A stretch of DNA of 36,377 nucleotides, from the IMG/VR virus record IMGVR_UViG_3300025151_000125, positions 1 to 36,377 of that record. One strand, given 5' to 3'. This DNA comes from a virus. The first letter of the stretch is position 1. Each line of letters begins with the position of its first letter. Shown piece after piece: positions 519-10,869 of this stretch. Both the position numbers and the translations under genes were made by a program. Below the pieces are notes generated by a model. That model saw only the letters and a list, made by a program, of their open reading frames with translations, did no database searches and had not been told where the DNA came from.

Positions 519-1027
519 ACATATTCGTATTAGATAAGAAGCCTGAGATAGCAGCAAGAATGCACTGTGACAAGCACATCCCCAAGATGTGTGTAGAAGC
601 CGCACAGATGATGGCATCAGCCCTGCGCCGACATGGTGCTACTGATGAACAGATGCCACTTACTAAGTCAGGGACTCCTTACAAGGGAGGCTACGCTCAC
701 CACCCATGCACAGTATGGGCTGGTGAAAACCGAAAAAACTTCATTTGGTTGTACCGTTATGGAATAACACTTTGTCAAGAATATACATCCCGTTTCGGTA
801 AAGTCCATTCTTGCTCTGAACCCATGCAAGTCATGTATAGAATACGCAAAATCATCCCACCAAGAAAAGGGAAGAAAGTACCATTCGCACAGGCCATGCC
901 TGATGAATACAAAGATGAGGATGCGGTCAAAGCATACCGAGCATACTACCATTCCAAGCAGTTTGCCAAGTGGGAGAAGGGGACACCTGCTCCTAACTGG
1001 TGGCAAGGCGTGGAGGTGACGGCATGA
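515..1027 (+). CDS. Pyrimidine dimer DNA glycosylase-like phage protein
   Basis: This 170-residue protein begins MNIFVLDKKPEIAARMHCDK and has the pattern CDKHIPKM-CVEAAQMM, then HHPCTVWAGE-NRKNFIWLYRYG, then EYTSRFGKVH. I recognise this layout from a family common in marine phages, often annotated as pyrimidine dimer DNA glycosylase (T4 endonuclease V-like). Such enzymes cut UV-induced pyrimidine dimers and nick the abasic site, which would suit a virus of sunlit water. The name is by family resemblance; no catalytic residue can be confirmed by eye, and the N-terminal Thr2 nucleophile of T4 DenV is absent (residue 2 is Asn). It is coupled on both sides by ATGA overlaps, and its end carries the strong Shine-Dalgarno of the clamp-loader gene. 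Confidence 0.55.
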   Translation: MNIFVLDKKPEIAARMHCDKHIPKMCVEAAQMMASALRRHGATDEQMPLTKSGTPYKGGYAHHPCTVWAGENRKNFIWLYRYGITLCQEYTSRFGKVHSCSEPMQVMYRIRKIIPPRKGKKVPFAQAMPDEYKDEDAVKAYRAYYHSKQFAKWEKGTPAPNWWQGVEVTA

Positions 1028-1968
1028 TAGTATGGAGAGAGAAATACAGACCAAACAAAATAGACGACCTAGCAGGTTGTAAGGAATTCAAAGAAGCAGC
1101 CAAGTCTTGGCTAGCCAAAGGTAGCCTACCAGCAAACATGCTGTATGTAGGATCACCCGGTGTAGGCAAGACTAGTGCAGCCTATGCACTAGCCAAAGAG
1201 TTGTACGGTGACTACTTCGATCCATCCAACTTCATTGTAACCAATGCAAGTGATGAGCGTGGTATCGATTTCGTCAGAGAACTAAAGCACATGGCTAAGC
1301 AGAAAGGCATAGGAGTCAGGAGGCGCATATTCGTACTAGATGAAGCAGACTCTCTGACACCTGCGGCACAGAAGGCACTGAGGCAAGTGATGGAGGACAG
1401 TCACAAAACTGCGATATTCATATTGACAGCCAACGACATCTCTCCGATTCACAAAGCAATCAGAGATAGATGCCTCACATTTAGATTCAACCCTCTCACT
1501 GATGAAGAGGCGAAGAGTAAACTAACTCAGATTCATTTAGCAGAAAACTTGCCGGAACCATGGCTAGAACAGTATACTATGTTGAACCGTTTAACCAATG
1601 GAAGTTTGAGGCAAAGTATCGACATTTTAGAGGGTACACCTAAGACAGATGAAGGTCTTTTGCAGAAACTCAAACGCAATACTGAGAGCCTAAACAAGGC
1701 AGCGCTCAGTTTCGCTGGTGGTGATTACCAGCGACTAGCAGAACACATGAAAGCCAACCTCAGAGAGGGGAACAGTCGTGTCGCAACCCTAATAGGGCTG
1801 AGGCATCGAGGTCGAACTCTACTGGAGGGTGGTCAAGACGATTGGTACGCATTTATGCTAACATATGGAGAGTTTATCCTGTTAGCAAACTTGTGGCCGG
1901 ACGATGACGATTCCTTTGTAGACTACTTTGTAGCAAAATTAAGGAAAAACAAGGAGGAAAAAATATGA
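1024..1968 (+). CDS. rfcS: Replication factor C small subunit (clamp loader ATPase)
   Basis: This 314-residue AAA+ ATPase loads the PCNA clamp on primed DNA. The start is ATG 1024: it overlaps the upstream TGA and sits 4 bases after GGAGGTGA (1012-1019), whereas an in-frame GTG at 1000 has no such support. Family hallmarks are the N-terminal WREKYRP motif (RFC box II), Walker A GSPGVGKT at residues 43-50, Walker B FVLDEAD at about 103-109, sensor I around FILTANDIS, and the SRC-type arginine motif IRDRC at 146-150. The helical collar domain follows. Length matches cellular RfcS (about 315-330). No large subunit lies in this window, so the loader may be homomeric or borrow the host large subunit. 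Identification is secure. Confidence 0.95.
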   Translation: MIVWREKYRPNKIDDLAGCKEFKEAAKSWLAKGSLPANMLYVGSPGVGKTSAAYALAKELYGDYFDPSNFIVTNASDERGIDFVRELKHMAKQKGIGVRRRIFVLDEADSLTPAAQKALRQVMEDSHKTAIFILTANDISPIHKAIRDRCLTFRFNPLTDEEAKSKLTQIHLAENLPEPWLEQYTMLNRLTNGSLRQSIDILEGTPKTDEGLLQKLKRNTESLNKAALSFAGGDYQRLAEHMKANLREGNSRVATLIGLRHRGRTLLEGGQDDWYAFMLTYGEFILLANLWPDDDDSFVDYFVAKLRKNKEEKI

Positions 1969-3248
1969 ACGACGAAAGAACACTACCGGAAGGCGTACTA
2001 GAGCGCCTAGAAGGATATGCAGAGAGAGCACAGAAAAAGATAGGAGAGGCAGCAAACGAATACCTTGCTTGGATTGAGCAAGAGTTCGCTGTATCTGATT
2101 GGAAAGACGAAGACGATGATTTGCTGGTCGAGTGGGCAGAGATGTTTACACTTGAGACACGCAATCTAGGCAGCAGCGGCAGCAGTCGTGAAACTGTAAC
2201 ATTCGTAGGCCAATTTGTAGGAATAGATGACAAAATCAACGACTACAGAGAGAATCTTAGAAACTCAGCGATTTCAGCATACAGAAACAATTCTAGCCAA
2301 GCCATAGATAACGGCTTGATTGGCATTGTGAAAGCGAAAGACGGGGTATGGCATGTCAATGGTGAGCCAACGAAGGAGCGCATTGATGGTGACAGGCTAC
2401 CTTGGTTTGGACTACAGGTCGATGGCGATCTAATATGTCTGATGAATGAAAAGGGTACACCTATTGCACCTGAAAGTAAAGTACGCAATCTGTACCTGTT
2501 GGGTAACTCTAAGGAGGATTTCAACAGAGACATCAGCGTTTGGCGTGTATCACTGACAGGTAACAATATGACTGAAGAATACGAACTAGGTAGACCTGTA
2601 ACATGTCAAGTAATCAGGGCTAAGAAAGAAGGCTCAGATACAGTTTATACCAATCGAGACTTTAGCAAGACCATGGTTTACACAGATTCCTTTGTAGATG
2701 AAGAGGACAGGGTACTGTTACGACCCGAGAAGTTCTTAGTTAGCAAAGGCATGCACAACTCGTTCGTAGAGTTAGATGAATTGAGCGAAGCCTACGATGA
2801 GCGCAAGATACAGGGTAGCAACGGTAACTACTACGGTCCAACTATCATCACTAAGGGATATGTCAGCAGACTGAACAAGGAGCCGTCTGACAATGAATAT
2901 GACCAAACTGGTCGTGCATTCAGACTCAGCGTTACCAGTCCTAGTGTGCAGCGTAAGTATGGCAGAGACTCTTCAATGTCTGAAGTAACTGTGTGGGTAC
3001 CGGGTCGAGTTTACGACGACAGCCACCCATTCGAGTTCAAGGACAACTACGGAGAATGGCAACCATATGCAGAGAAGACACCTGTAATTATCTTTGGTAG
3101 AGTGCGTCTAAGCATGTACAATGACCAAACTACACCAAGCCTGACGGCATTCGGCATCTATGTACCATCTCGTACAGCGAGGCCGGGTGCCAAGGGTGGT
3201 GACACTAGCATAGACCAATTCAAGAATAGCACTGGAGGAGACTTTTGA
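1965..3248 (+). CDS. Putative single-stranded DNA-binding protein (OB-fold, RPA-like)
   Basis: This is a 427-residue acidic protein whose ATG overlaps the upstream stop (ATGA 1965-1968) and follows AAGGAGGA. No motif proves its function. The call rests on beta-strand patterns that resemble OB folds (around VTFVGQFVGIDDKIND, residues 65-80, and VTVWVPG...TPVIIFGRVRLSMY near residues 345-385), a charged helical N-terminus, and a disordered C-terminal tail rich in G, S, N and T that ends in DF, like SSB interaction tips. Its place between the clamp loader and a RecA-like ATPase fits an SSB, a component expected in this virus group. It could instead be another replication accessory factor. Confidence 0.5.
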   Translation: MNDERTLPEGVLERLEGYAERAQKKIGEAANEYLAWIEQEFAVSDWKDEDDDLLVEWAEMFTLETRNLGSSGSSRETVTFVGQFVGIDDKINDYRENLRNSAISAYRNNSSQAIDNGLIGIVKAKDGVWHVNGEPTKERIDGDRLPWFGLQVDGDLICLMNEKGTPIAPESKVRNLYLLGNSKEDFNRDISVWRVSLTGNNMTEEYELGRPVTCQVIRAKKEGSDTVYTNRDFSKTMVYTDSFVDEEDRVLLRPEKFLVSKGMHNSFVELDELSEAYDERKIQGSNGNYYGPTIITKGYVSRLNKEPSDNEYDQTGRAFRLSVTSPSVQRKYGRDSSMSEVTVWVPGRVYDDSHPFEFKDNYGEWQPYAEKTPVIIFGRVRLSMYNDQTTPSLTAFGIYVPSRTARPGAKGGDTSIDQFKNSTGGDF

Positions 3249-4258
3249 TGGCAGGATTTGGAGCAATGAAGAAGAAAGAAGAAGAGAGAGCAGAAGCGAT
3301 CTTCCAAGCGGAAGCGGCAGAAGTAGACAAGCAGGTTGCAGAGGCGAAAGCCTCTGCGCCTGCCTCTAACAGCAACTTCCCTAACTTGGAGGCAGAATTT
3401 GCACAGCAGACTAACCCTAACAGGATGAGGCCTAGTAAGGTAATGTGTGGTGTGGTTGGACACGAGGGTACCGGCAAGTCCGGTATCGTGATTGACGGCC
3501 ACATGCACAGATACCCCGAAGGAATGCTTTGGGCAATAGATTTCGATAACGGGGCAATGGCTTGTAAAGAAGCACACTACCCCGGAGAAGATGAGCGCAT
3601 CAGAGTATGGTCACCTTGGGTTTTCCAAACTGCTGACCGCACTGCTTACGACTACCCAGCGACACACAGTCGCATGATGGAATTACTACGATTTGCCGTA
3701 GAGTATGCAGAGAAGCAGACTAAGCCTGACTTTGAAGGTAGGAAACTTAACACTGTTTTGATTACATCTGTAGACCAATGGGATTCAGTCTGTATGAACA
3801 ACATGAAGATATTCGATCTAGAGGATAACAATGTAAAGGATGCAGTTGGTGCTGCTAAGGTTGAGGTCAACCAAGGCATCGGTTGGAACTGGAGCATTAG
3901 GTCCACTAGATTCAAGCAAATGACAGCACTGTGTCAGAAACTAAACGCTCTCGGTGTAGACATATACTGGGAAACCCACCTCAAAGAGGATAAGGATGGC
4001 AAGGTCGGATTCGACGGCTGGAAGTTCGCATGGGAAAAGAGCGCAAACAACGACCTGTTCCAAATCATTTGGTGCCACGCTAACAAAGTGCGTGGTGATG
4101 ATGGCAAGGAAACAGGTGAAATCAGACACACGGCAGAGTTCTTCAAAGAAAAGACCAACTCTGACCTAAAGGGTCAGGAGAGACTTTATTTCGTCACTAA
4201 GAAAGGCGAGCCTGCGCAATGGCATGGGCTCGCTGAACTGCGTGAAGGAGTTCTTTGA
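3248..4258 (+). CDS. RecA/Sak4-like P-loop ATPase (recombinase)
   Basis: This encodes 336 residues from ATG 3248, which overlaps the upstream stop as TGATG; an in-frame TTG at 3245 is a weaker alternative. Residues 8-40 form a highly charged Lys/Glu/Ala helix, probably coiled coil. The core has Walker A GHEGTGKS at 71-78, an acidic segment AIDFDNGA near 96-103 and a Walker B-like strand TVLITSVDQW at 169-178. This is the compact arrangement of phage Sak4/RadA-like single-strand annealing ATPases (AAA_24 type). The likely role is ATP-dependent strand annealing or recombination during replication, working with the upstream putative SSB. It ends the first gene cluster; a 110-base gap follows. 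Confidence 0.75.
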   Translation: MAGFGAMKKKEEERAEAIFQAEAAEVDKQVAEAKASAPASNSNFPNLEAEFAQQTNPNRMRPSKVMCGVVGHEGTGKSGIVIDGHMHRYPEGMLWAIDFDNGAMACKEAHYPGEDERIRVWSPWVFQTADRTAYDYPATHSRMMELLRFAVEYAEKQTKPDFEGRKLNTVLITSVDQWDSVCMNNMKIFDLEDNNVKDAVGAAKVEVNQGIGWNWSIRSTRFKQMTALCQKLNALGVDIYWETHLKEDKDGKVGFDGWKFAWEKSANNDLFQIIWCHANKVRGDDGKETGEIRHTAEFFKEKTNSDLKGQERLYFVTKKGEPAQWHGLAELREGVL

Positions 4259-4368: not shown

Positions 4369-5127
4369 ATGGTAAGTTTCAAAGTAAACAACAAAGATCT
4401 AACACAATTCATAGCCGGGTTCGGTAAAGAATTGCCGGACATAGTGTTTAGGGTAAAAGATGATTATGTCGAGTCGGCAGTGGGTAAAGACACCCACTAT
4501 CTTAGGCGTAGAATAAATGTTAGAGAAGCGGAGGCTGGAGATATCGCAGTTAGTGATGTCTCTAGGTTACTTGCGTTTCTGAAGGCTACCAAGACTGGCG
4601 AAGTATCTATCAATCAGATGGGTAAAACATCAGTGTTACATGTGGCCTGCGGTAAGTCTACACTACAGTTACCAACATCATCGTACCTAACGACTCAGAA
4701 GCAATTACCTCTAATCGAAAGATTGGTGAATGAAGGTGAGAAAAACATGTGGCAGAAATGGGCATCGTTTAGTTTAGACTGTCATGGTATAGTCAACGGC
4801 GAAGACTTCGCACCAGCGGCACAGTTTGACAAGGTGATTGGAGGCAAATTCTCCTGTAAGACGGCATTCGATCCGTCAGGAGAATTCGTCGTTAGTGCGG
4901 GCTCAAAGCCTAAAGGCAAGATGTTTGTGCGTGTACCTGTTACCAATTGCGAATCTAACAACGATACAGTAAACTCAGCGTTTGCCTATTGGTTACCAGC
5001 ACTTCTGTCTAATCTACCGCCGGGCCCACTCAACCTCCACACTGGAGATGAAACTGTACTTGTGATAGAGCAGGGTGATACAGGTTTCTTGCTAGTTGTG
5101 ATGGACCAAGAGTACGAGGAGGACTAA
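4369..5127 (+). CDS. pcn: PCNA-like sliding clamp
   Basis: This 252-residue protein has the usual length of archaeal PCNA (about 245-250). It opens with the typical strand-helix pattern (VSFKVNNKDLTQFIAGFGKEL), then a strand like the PCNA first-domain face (IVFRVKDDYVESAVGKDTHY), then VSDVSRLLAFLKATKTGEVSI, matching the position of the conserved LxxhLkrak segment. The C-terminal half repeats the fold and ends DTGFLLVVMDQEYEED. The role is to tether PolB and nucleases to DNA as a trimeric ring loaded by the RFC protein upstream. Divergence is high, so the call leans partly on context: it lies just before PolB and shares a window with RFC. The start follows GGTGATAAT. Confidence 0.75.
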   Translation: MVSFKVNNKDLTQFIAGFGKELPDIVFRVKDDYVESAVGKDTHYLRRRINVREAEAGDIAVSDVSRLLAFLKATKTGEVSINQMGKTSVLHVACGKSTLQLPTSSYLTTQKQLPLIERLVNEGEKNMWQKWASFSLDCHGIVNGEDFAPAAQFDKVIGGKFSCKTAFDPSGEFVVSAGSKPKGKMFVRVPVTNCESNNDTVNSAFAYWLPALLSNLPPGPLNLHTGDETVLVIEQGDTGFLLVVMDQEYEED

Positions 5128-5129
5128 TG

Positions 5130-5321
5130 ATGTCTCATTATATCAGGGACTCCTACGGTAATGTGTGGCCTGTAGAGCATAACTTGCTGATAAATCTAAA
5201 TCAATGTAACTGTGGCAAAGACATACCTTATCACAAGGGTAAGCCACTTTGTCCACATTGCAAGAGTTATCAAGGTGAGGGCGGTTGTAATGATTGCGAG
5301 TGCTTGGAGGGGGAAAAATGA
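5130..5321 (+). CDS. Small zinc-knuckle protein
   Basis: This encodes 63 residues from ATG 5130; an adjacent in-frame ATG at 5127 overlapping the PCNA stop is equally possible. Shine-Dalgarno GGAGG lies at 5118-5122. It carries seven cysteines: CNC (26-28), CPHC (41-44) and CNDCEC (53-58), with His35 and His43, suggesting one or two zinc sites. It sits between PCNA and PolB and is coupled to PolB by an ATGA overlap, so an accessory role to the polymerase is plausible but unproven. I do not recognise a named family. Confidence 0.7.
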   Translation: MSHYIRDSYGNVWPVEHNLLINLNQCNCGKDIPYHKGKPLCPHCKSYQGEGGCNDCECLEGEK

Positions 5322-7672
5322 TTATCAATTCATATCACCCTGACCCTGAAGGCCACGCCTACATATACAAGCGGTGGCGTGACTCTGAAGGTAATCTCAT
5401 AGAACAGCACATTGACAACTTCAGACCCTATTTTTGGATTAGGGCAGAGACCAGTGACAGTGTAGTTAACAATGTGCTGAATAGATATCCGGGTAGTAGT
5501 ATAGATAGAAATGATACTGCTGTCGCATTGAAAACAGAAGAAGACTTGGTGAAAGTATACGCTTACAGGCAGTCTGATTTAAGAGGCATGCAGTTGGAAT
5601 TCGATAAAACATGGGAGGCTGACTTGAGTATAACAGACCGATACCTCATAGACAAGGTACAGGAGATGCCGGAATGGAAACCTCGTGTATGGCACTTTGA
5701 CTTGGAATGGGATCCCGATGAAGACTTCACTACTGTAATGTCTGTAGTAGACAATTACAATAATCGGAATGTTACATTCTGCTGGAGCGAAGAAACAGCC
5801 GTGATAGAAGAAAAGGGCTTTGTTAGAAAAGAAGTACGCCATGTAAAGTACGAAGATACCGAGTTTAGTTACGAGCGTTTATTCTACACCGATGAGAAAT
5901 CTATGCACAGTGCCTTTTTGGATTACTTAGAGGAATGCAACCCTGACATACTCGTAGCCCATGCTATCATGTGGGCAGATTTACCACATCTAGTCCGCAG
6001 ACTAGATGAGTTTAGACGGCTCAGCCCTCTTGGTCGTGTACTGCGCCCGCCTAAGAACGAGCGTGGTTACAAATACACTGACCAACCGATCTTAGGTAGG
6101 TTATGCTTTGACACAGCCGCACCTTACGATAGCGGTACGGGCTTTGAGCGTGTATGGAAGGATAGTGGTAAACCGCAATTAGCCAGTCGAAAACTAGACT
6201 ACATCACAGGTCCTGATGTATTAGGCTACGGCGGCAAGTTTGACATGGATGTATTTACAGGATGGAGAGAGAGATTTGATGACTATTGTGATTATTGTAT
6301 GCAGGATACTTTACTACTCAAAAGAATGGATGAAGAAAATCATGTCTTAAGTTTCTTCATGTCATTGCAGCGGATATGTGGCGTGACATTCAACTCTTGT
6401 TACAATGTTACTAGGTTTGCTCGTGGCCTACTTAGTAGGCGTACGCATTGGAAAGCACCTACTAACGCTGATGTCGACAAGCAGGACTACGAAGGGGCAT
6501 ACATCCCTCCGCCTAAGCCGGGCAGATACGAAGGTGTAGCCTGTGTAGACTACAAGGGTCTATACCCCTCCATCATTCTTAGTCACAATCTATCTTGGGA
6601 AACCCAAGTAGAAAGAAACAGGGCTGGAGAAGAAGGCATTCACAAATTACCTGATGGCACTACTTGGAGTCAAACTAAGAAGGGGCTTTTGCCTCAGATT
6701 GTAGAAGAAATGTTTGAACTGCGTGACGAATATAAGCGTAGGATGAGAGAGGCAGAAACTTCTGTGGAAAGAGCAGGTTGGAATACAATGCAACTTGCTA
6801 CGAAGCGCGTAATGGCTTCTCTGTATGGTATGGTTGCCAGTTCCTATTGGGGTTGGTGTGACTTCGCAATAGCCAACGCTATCACAGCCTGTGGTAGAGA
6901 GGCAATCAAATTCCTAATGGAAGAATCAGAGGCTCAGGGCTACGAAGCCCTGTATGGTCACACTGATTCAGCATTCGTAAAGATACCATTCGATGAGGCC
7001 ACAGCGTTAGCCAAACATCTGACAGAAAGGGTACAAATCGATCTCAATGCTAGTCACCTGATTGTAGAGTTTGAGGCATACATGCCATATTGGATGGTTG
7101 CAGGTAAAAACCTGTACTACGGTATTTGTTCTTGGCCTCCTGAAGATGAAGGTAAACCAAAGTCAGCCCGATTCGGCAAGATATCCACACTTGCCCCTAT
7201 CTCTCGCAACTTAGAGAGAGATGCTTTGACTATGATTTGTCAGGGCGCTTCAGAATCAGAGGTAATAGACTTTGTAAGACCTATTTCTTTGAAAATTAAG
7301 AAGGGTAAAGCGGAACTCAAGGAGGTGACCGGTGTTACTAGAATTTCTAAAAAACTCAAGAATTACGATAAACCAACACTCGGTGCAAAAGCGGCTATAT
7401 ACTACAATAAGCATATGGCAGAACGATTCAACCAACCCAACTTTGATGAAGGTGACAGTGTTCCTTGGGTGTATGTTGTGTCGTCACCTGATTGGGCACC
7501 GCCTACAAAAATTGTTTCTTACAAAGATGTGAAAGAATTAGAAGGATTTACACTGGATTGGGATACAATGGTTGACAAATTAGTGAAGAACAAAGTAAAG
7601 CCTATCTTCAAAGCCCTTGATTGGGATTTAGAAATGGCTTCAGGTGCAGCACGACCAAAGAGGTATTGGTGA
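5318..7672 (+). CDS. polB: Family B DNA polymerase with 3'-5' exonuclease
   Basis: This is the replicative DNA polymerase, 784 residues, from ATG 5318 after GGAGGGGG and overlapping the upstream stop. The exonuclease domain has Exo I DLEWD (D128, E130), Exo II around VAHAIMWAD (D221) and Exo III YCMQD (Y326, D330). The YxGA linker motif is YEGAY (391-395). The polymerase domain has motif A DYKGLYPSII (D411), motif B KRVMASLYG (496-504) and motif C YGHTDS (546-551). In motif C the usual first aspartate of YGDTDS is histidine (H548) while D550 remains. No intein interrupts the motifs. No obvious PIP box is seen at the C-terminus (ends ARPKRYW). It likely works with the PCNA and RFC encoded upstream. 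Confidence 0.96.
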   Translation: MIINSYHPDPEGHAYIYKRWRDSEGNLIEQHIDNFRPYFWIRAETSDSVVNNVLNRYPGSSIDRNDTAVALKTEEDLVKVYAYRQSDLRGMQLEFDKTWEADLSITDRYLIDKVQEMPEWKPRVWHFDLEWDPDEDFTTVMSVVDNYNNRNVTFCWSEETAVIEEKGFVRKEVRHVKYEDTEFSYERLFYTDEKSMHSAFLDYLEECNPDILVAHAIMWADLPHLVRRLDEFRRLSPLGRVLRPPKNERGYKYTDQPILGRLCFDTAAPYDSGTGFERVWKDSGKPQLASRKLDYITGPDVLGYGGKFDMDVFTGWRERFDDYCDYCMQDTLLLKRMDEENHVLSFFMSLQRICGVTFNSCYNVTRFARGLLSRRTHWKAPTNADVDKQDYEGAYIPPPKPGRYEGVACVDYKGLYPSIILSHNLSWETQVERNRAGEEGIHKLPDGTTWSQTKKGLLPQIVEEMFELRDEYKRRMREAETSVERAGWNTMQLATKRVMASLYGMVASSYWGWCDFAIANAITACGREAIKFLMEESEAQGYEALYGHTDSAFVKIPFDEATALAKHLTERVQIDLNASHLIVEFEAYMPYWMVAGKNLYYGICSWPPEDEGKPKSARFGKISTLAPISRNLERDALTMICQGASESEVIDFVRPISLKIKKGKAELKEVTGVTRISKKLKNYDKPTLGAKAAIYYNKHMAERFNQPNFDEGDSVPWVYVVSSPDWAPPTKIVSYKDVKELEGFTLDWDTMVDKLVKNKVKPIFKALDWDLEMASGAARPKRYW

Positions 7673-7676
7673 TAAT

Positions 7677-8660
7677 ATGGCGAGAGATTTTGAAGCATAC
7701 AAGAAGTCCACATATCAGTGGGAACCGGGACATGAAAAGCACCTTCGCATCACTAAGTCTAGTTTGACAAGCGATTTTGATTTCTGTCCACAACAATATC
7801 ATTTCAAGCGCAGAGAGGGTAGAAAGACACCCGAAACTGACGCAATGCGTAAGGGTACAAATGTACACAATGCAATGGAGGAGTTCTATGTCTATGTTAG
7901 GCCTAACTTGGACAAGGTTCTCAAACTACTTAATGATGGAAAGAAAGAAAAAGCATTTTCCTTGTTTGTGAAAAGCCTCCCTGTGCCGGAAGAACCCTAT
8001 CTTCTAGGCGAAGAAGAAATACTAATCAAAAGGCTGGAATGGGAGTTAGATCGGCTAGAAGCCACACAAGGTCAAAATTTTTTGCCAGTTATCAATGAAG
8101 ATGAAATACATGTGTTCACAGAGCGTGAGTTTGTACACAATGGGAAGACACACACAGTACCTATACACTTTGCAGGTATGATTGACCGAGGCTTCGAGAA
8201 CGAGGATGGCTCAATCAGCCTCATGGAATTGAAAACAGGTAAGTGGAAACAGAAATGGGACTGGAGAAAAAAAGAATGGAAAGATGATGTTTTCAAAGTC
8301 CGTGGGATGCGTAAAGAAATGGCATTCTATGTTGATTTACTCAAAATGGCAGACCACCCGTTGCAGAATGTAACCCATTGGGGCTGGTTCTACCCTGATG
8401 GATCTTGTGGAGATGACATGGAAGGTGTCAGATTCGTGGACAGTTGGTCGCATGAAAAGATTAGTAAAAGGTATTCAATGTATTACTCCGAGAATAGCGA
8501 ACAATTAGGTATATTAGAAAAAGAAGTTAACGCACTGTTAGAAGCGTATTTCCACGACCATTTTCCTCCTAAGCCACACCAAGGTAAATGTGCTTGGTGC
8601 AGTTTTACTGAAGATTGCCCCGCTTGGCAACCGGGCGGCGAGCATTATTGGCCGAGGTGA
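7677..8660 (+). CDS. Cas4/RecB-like PD-(D/E)XK nuclease with Fe-S cluster
   Basis: This encodes 327 residues from ATG 7677, whose Shine-Dalgarno GGTGAT overlaps the PolB stop; a longer frame from 7644 would intrude on PolB and is rejected. The nuclease core shows His64 in GTNVHNAMEEF, then GMIDRG (D170) and MELKTG (E184, K186), and an RKEMAFYVDLL helix near 212-222 matching the QhxxY-type motif. One N-terminal cysteine (C37 in DFCPQQY) and three C-terminal ones (C305, C308, C314 in CAWCSFTEDC) match the four-cysteine 4Fe-4S site of Cas4/AddB-type nucleases. The likely role is DNA end resection in replication or recombination. No cas1, cas2 or CRISPR repeats are nearby, so a CRISPR adaptation role is not indicated. 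Confidence 0.87.
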   Translation: MARDFEAYKKSTYQWEPGHEKHLRITKSSLTSDFDFCPQQYHFKRREGRKTPETDAMRKGTNVHNAMEEFYVYVRPNLDKVLKLLNDGKKEKAFSLFVKSLPVPEEPYLLGEEEILIKRLEWELDRLEATQGQNFLPVINEDEIHVFTEREFVHNGKTHTVPIHFAGMIDRGFENEDGSISLMELKTGKWKQKWDWRKKEWKDDVFKVRGMRKEMAFYVDLLKMADHPLQNVTHWGWFYPDGSCGDDMEGVRFVDSWSHEKISKRYSMYYSENSEQLGILEKEVNALLEAYFHDHFPPKPHQGKCAWCSFTEDCPAWQPGGEHYWPR

Positions 8661-8664
8661 TGAA

Positions 8665-9759
8665 ATGTATGTACAGTTTGATTTTCCAAGAGAAGTATTA
8701 GAGTTAAGCACAGAGAAAGGAAAGGGCTTCAGAAAGTTAGTGCGAAACAGCACTGAATTTGAACGATATTGGGCAGGTAAAAATGGCGTATCTAACGCAT
8801 ACACTACAGTCTATGGATATCGTGCTACAGAGGCCCCTAACCATAAGAGAGTAAACTTACAGACTCCGATAATCAGACACTTTGTATTGGATTTCGATCC
8901 TAAAGATTTCACTAACCCTAGTCGCCCCGATGTGGCATTGGATGTACCTCTGTCACAGGCTCTCAGGTTGCATAAAGAATTACTAGAGAAAGACATAGAG
9001 CATGGTGTGTGGTTCAGCGGCGGTGGCTTCCACATATGGATAGCATTGTCTAAAACATACACTCCTGCTAGTGGTTCTCACTTATCGGCTATCAGAGAGG
9101 CTGGTATGAGAAGAGTAAATGACTGGATAAAGGACTTAAATCTGTACTGTTCTGACCCTGCAGTACCATTCGATACAAGTGGGTTAATTCGCATTCCTAA
9201 CTCCTATAACGCCAAGCGTGGTTACTGGAGTGTCCCTCTGAATACAGAGGATTTAGAAAATGGCATGGGTCATATTCTTGAGAAAGCCCTAGAGCCTACA
9301 AGTGGTGTCATATCTTACGGGAAAAATGGCATCAAACTAGATGTAAAGAAGCCCGGTGAAAAGAAGGGTGTATTTCAAAAGAATACTGCACCACTAGACC
9401 TACCTACGCTGAAGATGGATGGCGTAATCATACTACCCTGCCTCAATCAGGCAGCCTGTCAGATCGGAGGCAACCCTAGTCACGATTCTAGGGTACAATT
9501 AGTGAAATATCTAGCCAAGCGAATGAGACACTTCTTACCATTAGATAGATTTAATTCAGACATACTGACTACTCATACAGAGAAAATTGTTTCCTTCATA
9601 AAGAGTCTGCAGTGGGCTGATTTTGACGAGGGCGTGACTCGTTATCAGGTTAATACGATAGTGGGTAAAGACTATCCTCAAACCTGTAACATGCTTTGGT
9701 CAAAAGGTCTGTGCATGGGTAAATGTAGATACTGGGATAAAACGGGGGCCATAGAATGA
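8665..9759 (+). CDS. Archaeo-eukaryotic primase: PriS-like core with PriL-like Fe-S C-terminal domain
   Basis: This 364-residue protein starts at ATG 8665 after GAGGTGAT. The catalytic core has DFD at residues 76-78 (motif I), SGGGFH at 118-123 (motif II) and the late motif DPAVPFDTSGLIRIPNS (164-180). The C-terminal third looks like the PriL/PRIM2 iron-sulphur domain: LPC (C259), SHDSRVQLVKYLAKRM (272-287), RYQVNTIVGKDYPQTC (C341), then GLC (C350) and GKC (C354). It thus appears to combine in one chain what cells split between two subunits. It would make primers for the PolB encoded upstream. The stop overlaps the next gene (ATGA at 9756-9759). A previous longer frame from 8590 overlaps the nuclease gene and is rejected. 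Confidence 0.88.
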   Translation: MYVQFDFPREVLELSTEKGKGFRKLVRNSTEFERYWAGKNGVSNAYTTVYGYRATEAPNHKRVNLQTPIIRHFVLDFDPKDFTNPSRPDVALDVPLSQALRLHKELLEKDIEHGVWFSGGGFHIWIALSKTYTPASGSHLSAIREAGMRRVNDWIKDLNLYCSDPAVPFDTSGLIRIPNSYNAKRGYWSVPLNTEDLENGMGHILEKALEPTSGVISYGKNGIKLDVKKPGEKKGVFQKNTAPLDLPTLKMDGVIILPCLNQAACQIGGNPSHDSRVQLVKYLAKRMRHFLPLDRFNSDILTTHTEKIVSFIKSLQWADFDEGVTRYQVNTIVGKDYPQTCNMLWSKGLCMGKCRYWDKTGAIE

Positions 9760-10049: not shown

Positions 10050-10159
10050 AAAAAATGTTGCAACTTTTGGAGGCTATAGTTTTAATCATAATACTGATTC
10101 CAATCATAGCGATTTTGTACCCTTTACATTGGGTTAACCAAACGGTGGTGAAGAAATGA
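10046..10159 (+). CDS. 37-residue single-pass membrane peptide
   Basis: A short frame from ATG 10046 to TGA 10157-10159 overlaps both neighbours by ATGA junctions. It begins MKKMLQLLEA and continues with a strongly hydrophobic run of about 16 residues (IVLIIILIPIIAILYP), then a polar end with two lysines. This is a clear membrane segment. It is unusual inside a replication operon and could anchor a replication complex to the membrane or act as a small toxin or holin-like peptide; neither is shown. No gene name can be given. Confidence 0.65.
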   Translation: MKKMLQLLEAIVLIIILIPIIAILYPLHWVNQTVVKK

Positions 10160-10869
10160 AAGTGCCACTAATTATCGATTCTAACGAGAGGGGTCCTCTG
10201 AAAGACGCTGTTGTGAGAGCAGCAGAAAGGCAGGGCATACCTGTAAAACAAGAGTTTCTACAGGGTATGGGTGATTACAAAGCGGGAGACGGACACATTG
10301 AGTGTAAAAGTATCTCTGACTTATTCCAATCTACATTTTCGGGCCATCTTATGCGTCAGATGGAAAACTTGGATGCCAATTGCCAAAGAGTATTTTTGGT
10401 AGTCCACGGCGATCTTGCAAAGTATGTGAAGATTGCAAATAATCAAGGTAGAAAAACTACTTATTCCAAATCACTTAACACACTAACAGGTATCATTGCT
10501 CGCATAATGGCCGATTTTGATTGCCATGTATGGAGGGCTAACAACTATAGCGAAGCGGCTATGTTCATCACAAAATTACATTCCAAATTACACACATCTG
10601 CATCTAGTCATGGTGCAAAGGCAATTACTAGGGTCAGCACTAACGATATTAGAGCAGACATGTTGCTCGCAATACCCGGCTTTGGGCAAGACTTAGTGGA
10701 AAAATTATTAGACAGGTGCGGCTGTATCGAAGAGATGTTACATGTCGAATCTGTTAAACAGGTGAAGGGAATGGGTTCTGTTCTGCGACAGCGATTAATT
10801 GAGGTTCTCACGAGCGAGGAGCCAGTAAAGGTGGAGCGGAAATATAGCAAGGGGAGAGGAAAGATATGA
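10156..10869 (+). CDS. XPF/ERCC4-type structure-specific nuclease with HhH tail
   Basis: This 237-residue protein has an N-terminal ERCC4 nuclease domain: IDSNERGPL (D8, E11), GMGDYKAGDG (GDY at 39-41) and IECKSISDL (E49, K51, D55), corresponding to the family's GDY...ERKxxxD core. The usual arginine of ERK is cysteine (C50). The C-terminus holds tandem helix-hairpin-helix motifs: LLAIPGFGQDLVEKLLDRCG, then VKQVKGMGSVLRQRL. This is the minimal Hef/XPF/Mus81 layout without the helicase domain, suggesting cleavage of flaps, forks or recombination junctions. It is coupled to both neighbours by ATGA overlaps and probably serves replication-intermediate processing. Confidence 0.85.
   Translation: MKVPLIIDSNERGPLKDAVVRAAERQGIPVKQEFLQGMGDYKAGDGHIECKSISDLFQSTFSGHLMRQMENLDANCQRVFLVVHGDLAKYVKIANNQGRKTTYSKSLNTLTGIIARIMADFDCHVWRANNYSEAAMFITKLHSKLHTSASSHGAKAITRVSTNDIRADMLLAIPGFGQDLVEKLLDRCGCIEEMLHVESVKQVKGMGSVLRQRLIEVLTSEEPVKVERKYSKGRGKI

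Follow-up and report, generated by a model that had tools for sequence, protein, structure and literature searches.

Genes at the locus

The window, that is, the whole stretch of 36,377 bases analysed here, is a virus record, possibly an incomplete one. As the preliminary description had stated, it carries PolB in a setting of replication genes, which comprises an RFC-like clamp loader, a PCNA-fold clamp, PolB and nucleases (Table 1). The PolB product matches the Pfam domain DNA_pol_B (PF00136; 9.4e-37, 127 bits against a cut-off of 23), exo1 (1.3e-05) and phrog_262 (3.3e-83). In structural comparison its AlphaFold model, which has a mean pLDDT of 91, came nearest to the solved structures of KOD, Tgo, RB69 and E. 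coli Pol II, with which it aligns over the full length with a Z of 28. With both the PF00136 domain and the PolB fold present, the protein is a family B DNA polymerase. The clamp gene lies directly upstream of PolB, and its homologues occupy the same position in related loci; sequence profiles of the clamp gave no significant match in the PDB.

A well-conserved 469-residue protein encoded beside PolB possesses a GKS-type motif and is possibly a helicase or ATPase; profile searches found no Pfam, PHROG or significant PDB relative of it. The window also encodes its own thermosome-like Group II chaperonin subunit, in addition to a single open frame of 5508 residues that spans nearly half of the window and probably specifies a giant structural or tail protein. 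No near match to the window was found in the phage collection. DNApolB and an ERCC4-type nuclease, both core genes of the magroviruses (PMC10160649), are found in the window; the same source also counts a DNA ligase and a DNA glycosylase among these core genes. From the literature and the gene content, the best reading is that PolB is the replicative polymerase of a magrovirus-type tailed virus of marine Group II archaea.

Table 1. Genes of the window and PolB residues discussed in the text
Feature	Position	Strand	Evidence or remark
Clamp loader small subunit, RFC-like AAA+	1021..1968	+	PF00004; phrog_168 1.2e-44; RFC small subunit 1.3e-54, below the NCBIfam cut-off
Sak4-like ATPase (weak)	3245..4258	+	phrog_124 3.1e-4
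Sliding clamp, PCNA fold	4369..5127	+	AlphaFold pLDDT 93; Foldseek archaeal PCNA E 5e-12
Family B DNA polymerase (PolB), 784 aa	5318..7672	+	alternative TTG start at 5294 possible
Exonuclease active-site residues D128, E130, D221, D330 (within this stretch)	5699..6307	+	each 132/132
D411, motif A metal-binding Asp (RB69 D411)	6548..6550	+	invariant 132/132
Motif B KRVMASLYG, A500 where RB69 has N564	6803..6829	+	82 Ala, 50 Asn of 132
H548, codon CAC, site of motif C first Asp (RB69 D621)	6959..6961	+	translation, RB69 alignment
D550, motif C second, metal-binding Asp (RB69 D623)	6965..6967	+	invariant 132/132
E584-F-E586, acidic pair (RB69 D684/E686, KOD E578/E580)	7067..7075	+	each Glu 132/132
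K597-N598-L599-Y600, KKxY with second Lys replaced by Asn (RB69 K706, KOD K592, Pfu K593)	7106..7117	+	
PD-(D/E)XK nuclease	7677..8660	+	PF12705 4.3e-18
Possible primase large subunit-like protein (weak, C-terminal part only)	8665..9759	+	PriL 1.3e-5, below cut-off
XPF/Hef-type ERCC4 nuclease	10156..10869	+	PF02732 3.1e-13; Hef 6.2e-19
Protein with GKS-type motif, 469 aa	10866..12275	+	
Group II chaperonin subunit, 498 aa	12978..14474	+	PF00118 9.4e-129
Single open frame, 5508 aa	17947..34473	-	

Motif C of PolB retains only the second aspartate

Translation of the PolB frame places LYGHTDSAFV at residues 545-554, in agreement with the YGHTDS motif and the CAC-encoded H548 of the preliminary description. 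Two motif C aspartates are found in most PolBs, of which only the second is present here. Alignment against RB69 gp43 showed that D550, D411 and the exonuclease residues are kept, as had been claimed, with D128, E130, D221 and D330 corresponding to D114, E116, D222 and D327 of RB69. Besides H548, PolB departs from the norm at A500 and N598. The first motif C Asp is also missing from the B2 PolBs and piPolBs (PMC7544198), so a motif C with two aspartates is usual rather than defining, and the single Asp of PolB is therefore compatible with family B membership.

A sequencing or assembly error at H548 was ruled out, as the residue recurs in many independent contigs with differing codons. The CAC codon itself is genuine: one IMG/VR record that encodes an identical protein (100% identity) carries the same codon.

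His or Phe occupies the site throughout a viral clade

Searches of IMG/VR gave, after removal of duplicates, 132 distinct relatives with identities down to ~40%. At site 548 they have His (115) or Phe (17) and never Asp, compared to Asp in 10 of 10 outgroups, which comprise haloviruses, a halobacterial plasmid PolB, two T4-like marine phages and RB69. The possibility that all close relatives carry Asp had been raised in the preliminary description; the alignment showed the opposite, and the suggestion that the substitution marks a clade is borne out. The codons at the site are CAC in 86, CAT in 29, TTC in ten and TTT in seven of the distinct sequences. The search alignments were truncated ahead of motif C to keep the motif from selecting its own matches; in two of them only two haloviral rows extended past motif C, and the patterns used were derived elsewhere. 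A first wide scan had found His at all 63 scorable loci. A DNA pattern left open at the codon (any NNY) gave at least 73 His and at least five Phe in a PolB context, with no Asp among the PolB-context matches listed and two unrelated matches besides. Genome-contig scans found no cellular relatives.

In a quick maximum-likelihood tree of 92 sequences, built with one alignment program and limited outgroups, a fully supported branch separates the clade from all other sequences. Asp changed to His once, on the stem of the clade, and His changed to Phe once within it; the 15 of the 17 Phe relatives placed on the tree form one fully supported subclade. Long branches separate the clade from the outgroups, and therefore outgroups with Asp that are nearer than those sampled could still exist.

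The ratio dN/dS between near relatives of PolB is 0.03-0.07. No variation occurs across the 132 sequences at D411, D550, E584, E586, K496, Y416 and Y503 or at any of the four acids of the exonuclease. Judged from these values and residues, an active variant is likelier than a dead copy, as previously suggested. In six of the loci (L014, L015, L069, L070, L071 and L079) the PolB reading frame is disrupted by apparent frameshifts, which are perhaps sequencing errors.

Other changes in motifs A, B, C and ExoII

RB69 N564, the counterpart of A500, touches the incoming nucleotide. Replacement of this Asn by Ala in motif B (6815-6817) occurs jointly with replacement of the motif A Ser by Gly (G414, 6557-6559) in 82 of the 132 sequences; the remaining 50 have the canonical-type Ser and Asn together with His at site 548. 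A link of His to the motif A and B changes (GLYPS and KRVMAS) was thus ruled out. In a subclade of 19 sequences, the motif C Tyr, replaced by Ala, and the KKxY Tyr, replaced by Asn, are lost jointly, giving AGHTDS with KNxN in 19 of 19 (among them L273, L281, L283, L301 and L326). The ExoII motif GWN of PolII-like PolBs (RB69 W216) corresponds to A214-H215-A216 here (5957-5965); His stands at the Trp position in 132 of 132 sequences, and the PolII-like signature described previously (PMC7544198) is absent.

The first aspartate in solved structures and mutants

The first motif C Asp is usually called catalytic and is nearly universal in PolBs, and PolBs without it have been called inactive. The preliminary description took it to help bind the catalytic metals; a role mainly as a metal ligand is probably wrong. 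In the KOD, Tgo and 9N complexes the metals are assigned to D404, D542, E580 and E578 and not to the first Asp, D540 (PMC5718519, PMC7763228); these ligands comprise the motif A Asp, the second motif C Asp and downstream Glu. The first Asp lies off the metals in structures (PMC8764526). The equivalents of all four KOD ligands are kept in the clade.

In the Pfu-E10 structure, the second KKRY Lys extends into the minor groove, where it bonds to O2 of the primer's penultimate base; a salt bridge from Asp541 orients this Lys (PMC3733885); from the motif numbering of homologues, Asp541 is the first motif C Asp. Almost every single substitution of KOD D540 or K592 kills PCR activity (PMC5568139). 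According to older mutant data as cited in PMC8764526, Pol alpha, phi29 and RB69 become less active once the first Asp is removed, with partial rescue by Mn. An indirect metal role of the first Asp would still be compatible with these mutants.

The KxY lysine is lost together with the first aspartate

Comparison of the 132 members with the ten outgroups, in search of residues uniform in the clade but uncommon elsewhere, brought out N598. The partner Lys is replaced by Asn598 in 132 of 132 clade members, alongside both His and Phe at site 548, whereas it is Lys in 10 of 10 outgroups. With the first Asp changed to His or Phe and the second Lys changed to Asn, neither partner of the salt bridge therefore remains.

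Further analysis of other PolBs revealed the same concordance. Six B2-type PolBs of haloarchaeal plasmids have HGI[GV]DS with LTKY, that is, Ile and Thr at the Asp and Lys sites, and the PolBs of crAssphage and seven other phages (L485-L492) have NTDG with N[NS]Y, with Asn at both sites; a DTDG relative of the crAss-type phage PolBs retains the Lys. The Lys is kept in every sampled PolB with the first Asp, namely E. coli Pol II, a Deinococcus and three cyanobacterial plasmid PolBs, and those of an Anabaena phage, haloviruses and T4-like phages. Discordant Asp and Lys states were found in none of the PolBs sampled (the clade, B2-type, crAss-type and first-Asp-bearing). At the level of lineages, three with joint loss stand against four with Asp and Lys (Fisher p = 0.029), in a sample that is small and non-random. 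Asn at the sites of the first motif C Asp and the KxY lysine is shared by crAss-type and many other phage PolBs; a departure of the crAss-like enzymes at motif C as well as at KxY had been noted earlier (PMC7544198).

Proposed function and alternative explanations

Altogether, we consider it probable that PolB is an active two-metal replicative polymerase in which the Asp-Lys minor-groove sensor has been lost or replaced as a unit, and which would react differently to primer ends that are mismatched or damaged. The sensor would have been exchanged as one unit in the clade: Asn598, able to donate a hydrogen bond, may contact the groove directly, and H548 or F548 would fill the space of the Asp, packed under N598 with no charge required. 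The enzyme would then remain a two-metal polymerase without a new metal preference, and the expected outcome would be changed primer-end checking and mismatch extension. B2 enzymes, from which the same pair is missing, extend efficiently in translesion synthesis (PMC8764526), but the analogy is a loose one, as they lack proofreading as well. The swap thus suggests a rewired checking of freshly made DNA, not the death of the enzyme, and altered fidelity or mismatch extension through the lost Asp-Lys groove contact is plausible.

Alternatively, His548 might serve as a substitute metal ligand, and the enzyme would then work with Mn or some other divalent metal. His is present in 115 of the 132 relatives, and Dpo2, a B2-type enzyme that also lacks the first Asp, is active and more so with Mn than with Mg (PMC8764526); metal-specific effects are likewise described for RB69 and Pol alpha mutants of the motif C region, as cited there. 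However, the direct metal ligands are all retained, the first Asp lies off the metals in the structures cited above, and Phe, which cannot bind metal, replaces His in a whole subclade. Because Phe can take the place of His, a metal-binding His is unlikely to be essential, and we regard this explanation as unlikely.

More doubtful still is the gain of another acidic residue that assumes the role of the first Asp, a function that has been suggested for the D(K/R) motif in B2 polymerases (PMC7544198). In a scan of the clade against the outgroups, the only acids conserved in the clade and rare outside it were E277, D325, D107 and E646, none of which belongs to palm motif A, B, C or KxY. Moreover, the partner Lys of the salt bridge is itself absent, so no acid would be needed at that place.

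It is very improbable that PolB is dead or a structural subunit while the host replicates the virus, even though single D540 substitutions inactivate KOD in PCR. Strong purifying selection, the complete set of polymerase and exonuclease residues, and the clamp and clamp loader encoded nearby make a dead copy unlikely and a working enzyme the prediction; in addition, active PolBs without the first Asp exist, such as Dpo2 (PMC8764526) and, according to PMC7544198, the piPolBs. Neutral drift at a position no longer important in the clade would account for the acceptance of both His and Phe, but it has very little probability, as only two residues in 132 deeply divergent sequences, with silent codon changes, indicate constraint at site 548.

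Beyond the clade, we propose that throughout family B the Asp and the KxY lysine together make up a single exchangeable minor-groove sensor, which would have been replaced as a whole on at least three occasions (H/F-N, I-T and N-N), with the magroviruses being a proofreading replicative lineage on the swapped form; from the sequences compared, we hold this extension to be evenly balanced between true and false. Replication without the first Asp appears to be the rule in an entire lineage of viruses that abound in the ocean, and the joint loss of Asp and Lys offers a simple, testable account of what this Asp does. The pair model predicts that, in KOD or RB69, a single mutation that is lethal by itself may be rescued by changing the partner. 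The clade also provides candidate polymerases with altered primer-end checking, which are of possible practical use.

Comparison with known systems

The window shares with the magroviruses (Poseidoniales viruses, groups A-E and X) a DNApolB, an ERCC4 nuclease, a clamp loader and an origin among marine IMG/VR contigs. Their descriptions do not include the motif C change in the passages searched, nor is it mentioned in the searchable passages of the PolB-evolution papers; the literature search likewise found no paper containing the string YGHTDS. Within the passages searched the motif C change appears new, although PolBs without the first Asp, such as B2 and piPolBs, are already known.

The nearest relatives outside the clade are the B5 PolBs of haloviruses and halobacterial plasmids (HF1, HRTV-27 and Halobaculum), with 24-25% identity over nearly the full length, which are also found in viruses with a clamp and clamp loader (PMC7544198). 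YGDTDS, KKxY and the ExoII Trp are all retained in them, whereas the clade has G[HF]TDS, KNxY and AHA. The quick tree puts the clade next to the haloviral set rather than within it, with long branches. Compared to the T4-like PolB RB69 gp43, the fold is the same and the active site agrees residue for residue except at D621, N564 and K706; unlike the clade, RB69 possesses the first Asp and both KKRY lysines.

The archaeal B2 (Dpo2) and bacterial G2 enzymes resemble the clade in lacking the first motif C Asp, and the KxY lysine is missing from the six haloarchaeal B2 enzymes. They differ in an HxxxD motif C, with His at the Tyr site and Ile at the Asp site, and in degraded exonuclease motifs, whereas the clade has four intact exonuclease acids and YGHTDS, which sets it apart from B2. 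The crAss-like NTDG phage PolBs are similar to the clade in that both the first Asp and the KxY lysine are replaced; however, they belong to another PolB supergroup (EpsilonN-like, PMC7544198) and carry other replacing residues, with Asn at both sites.
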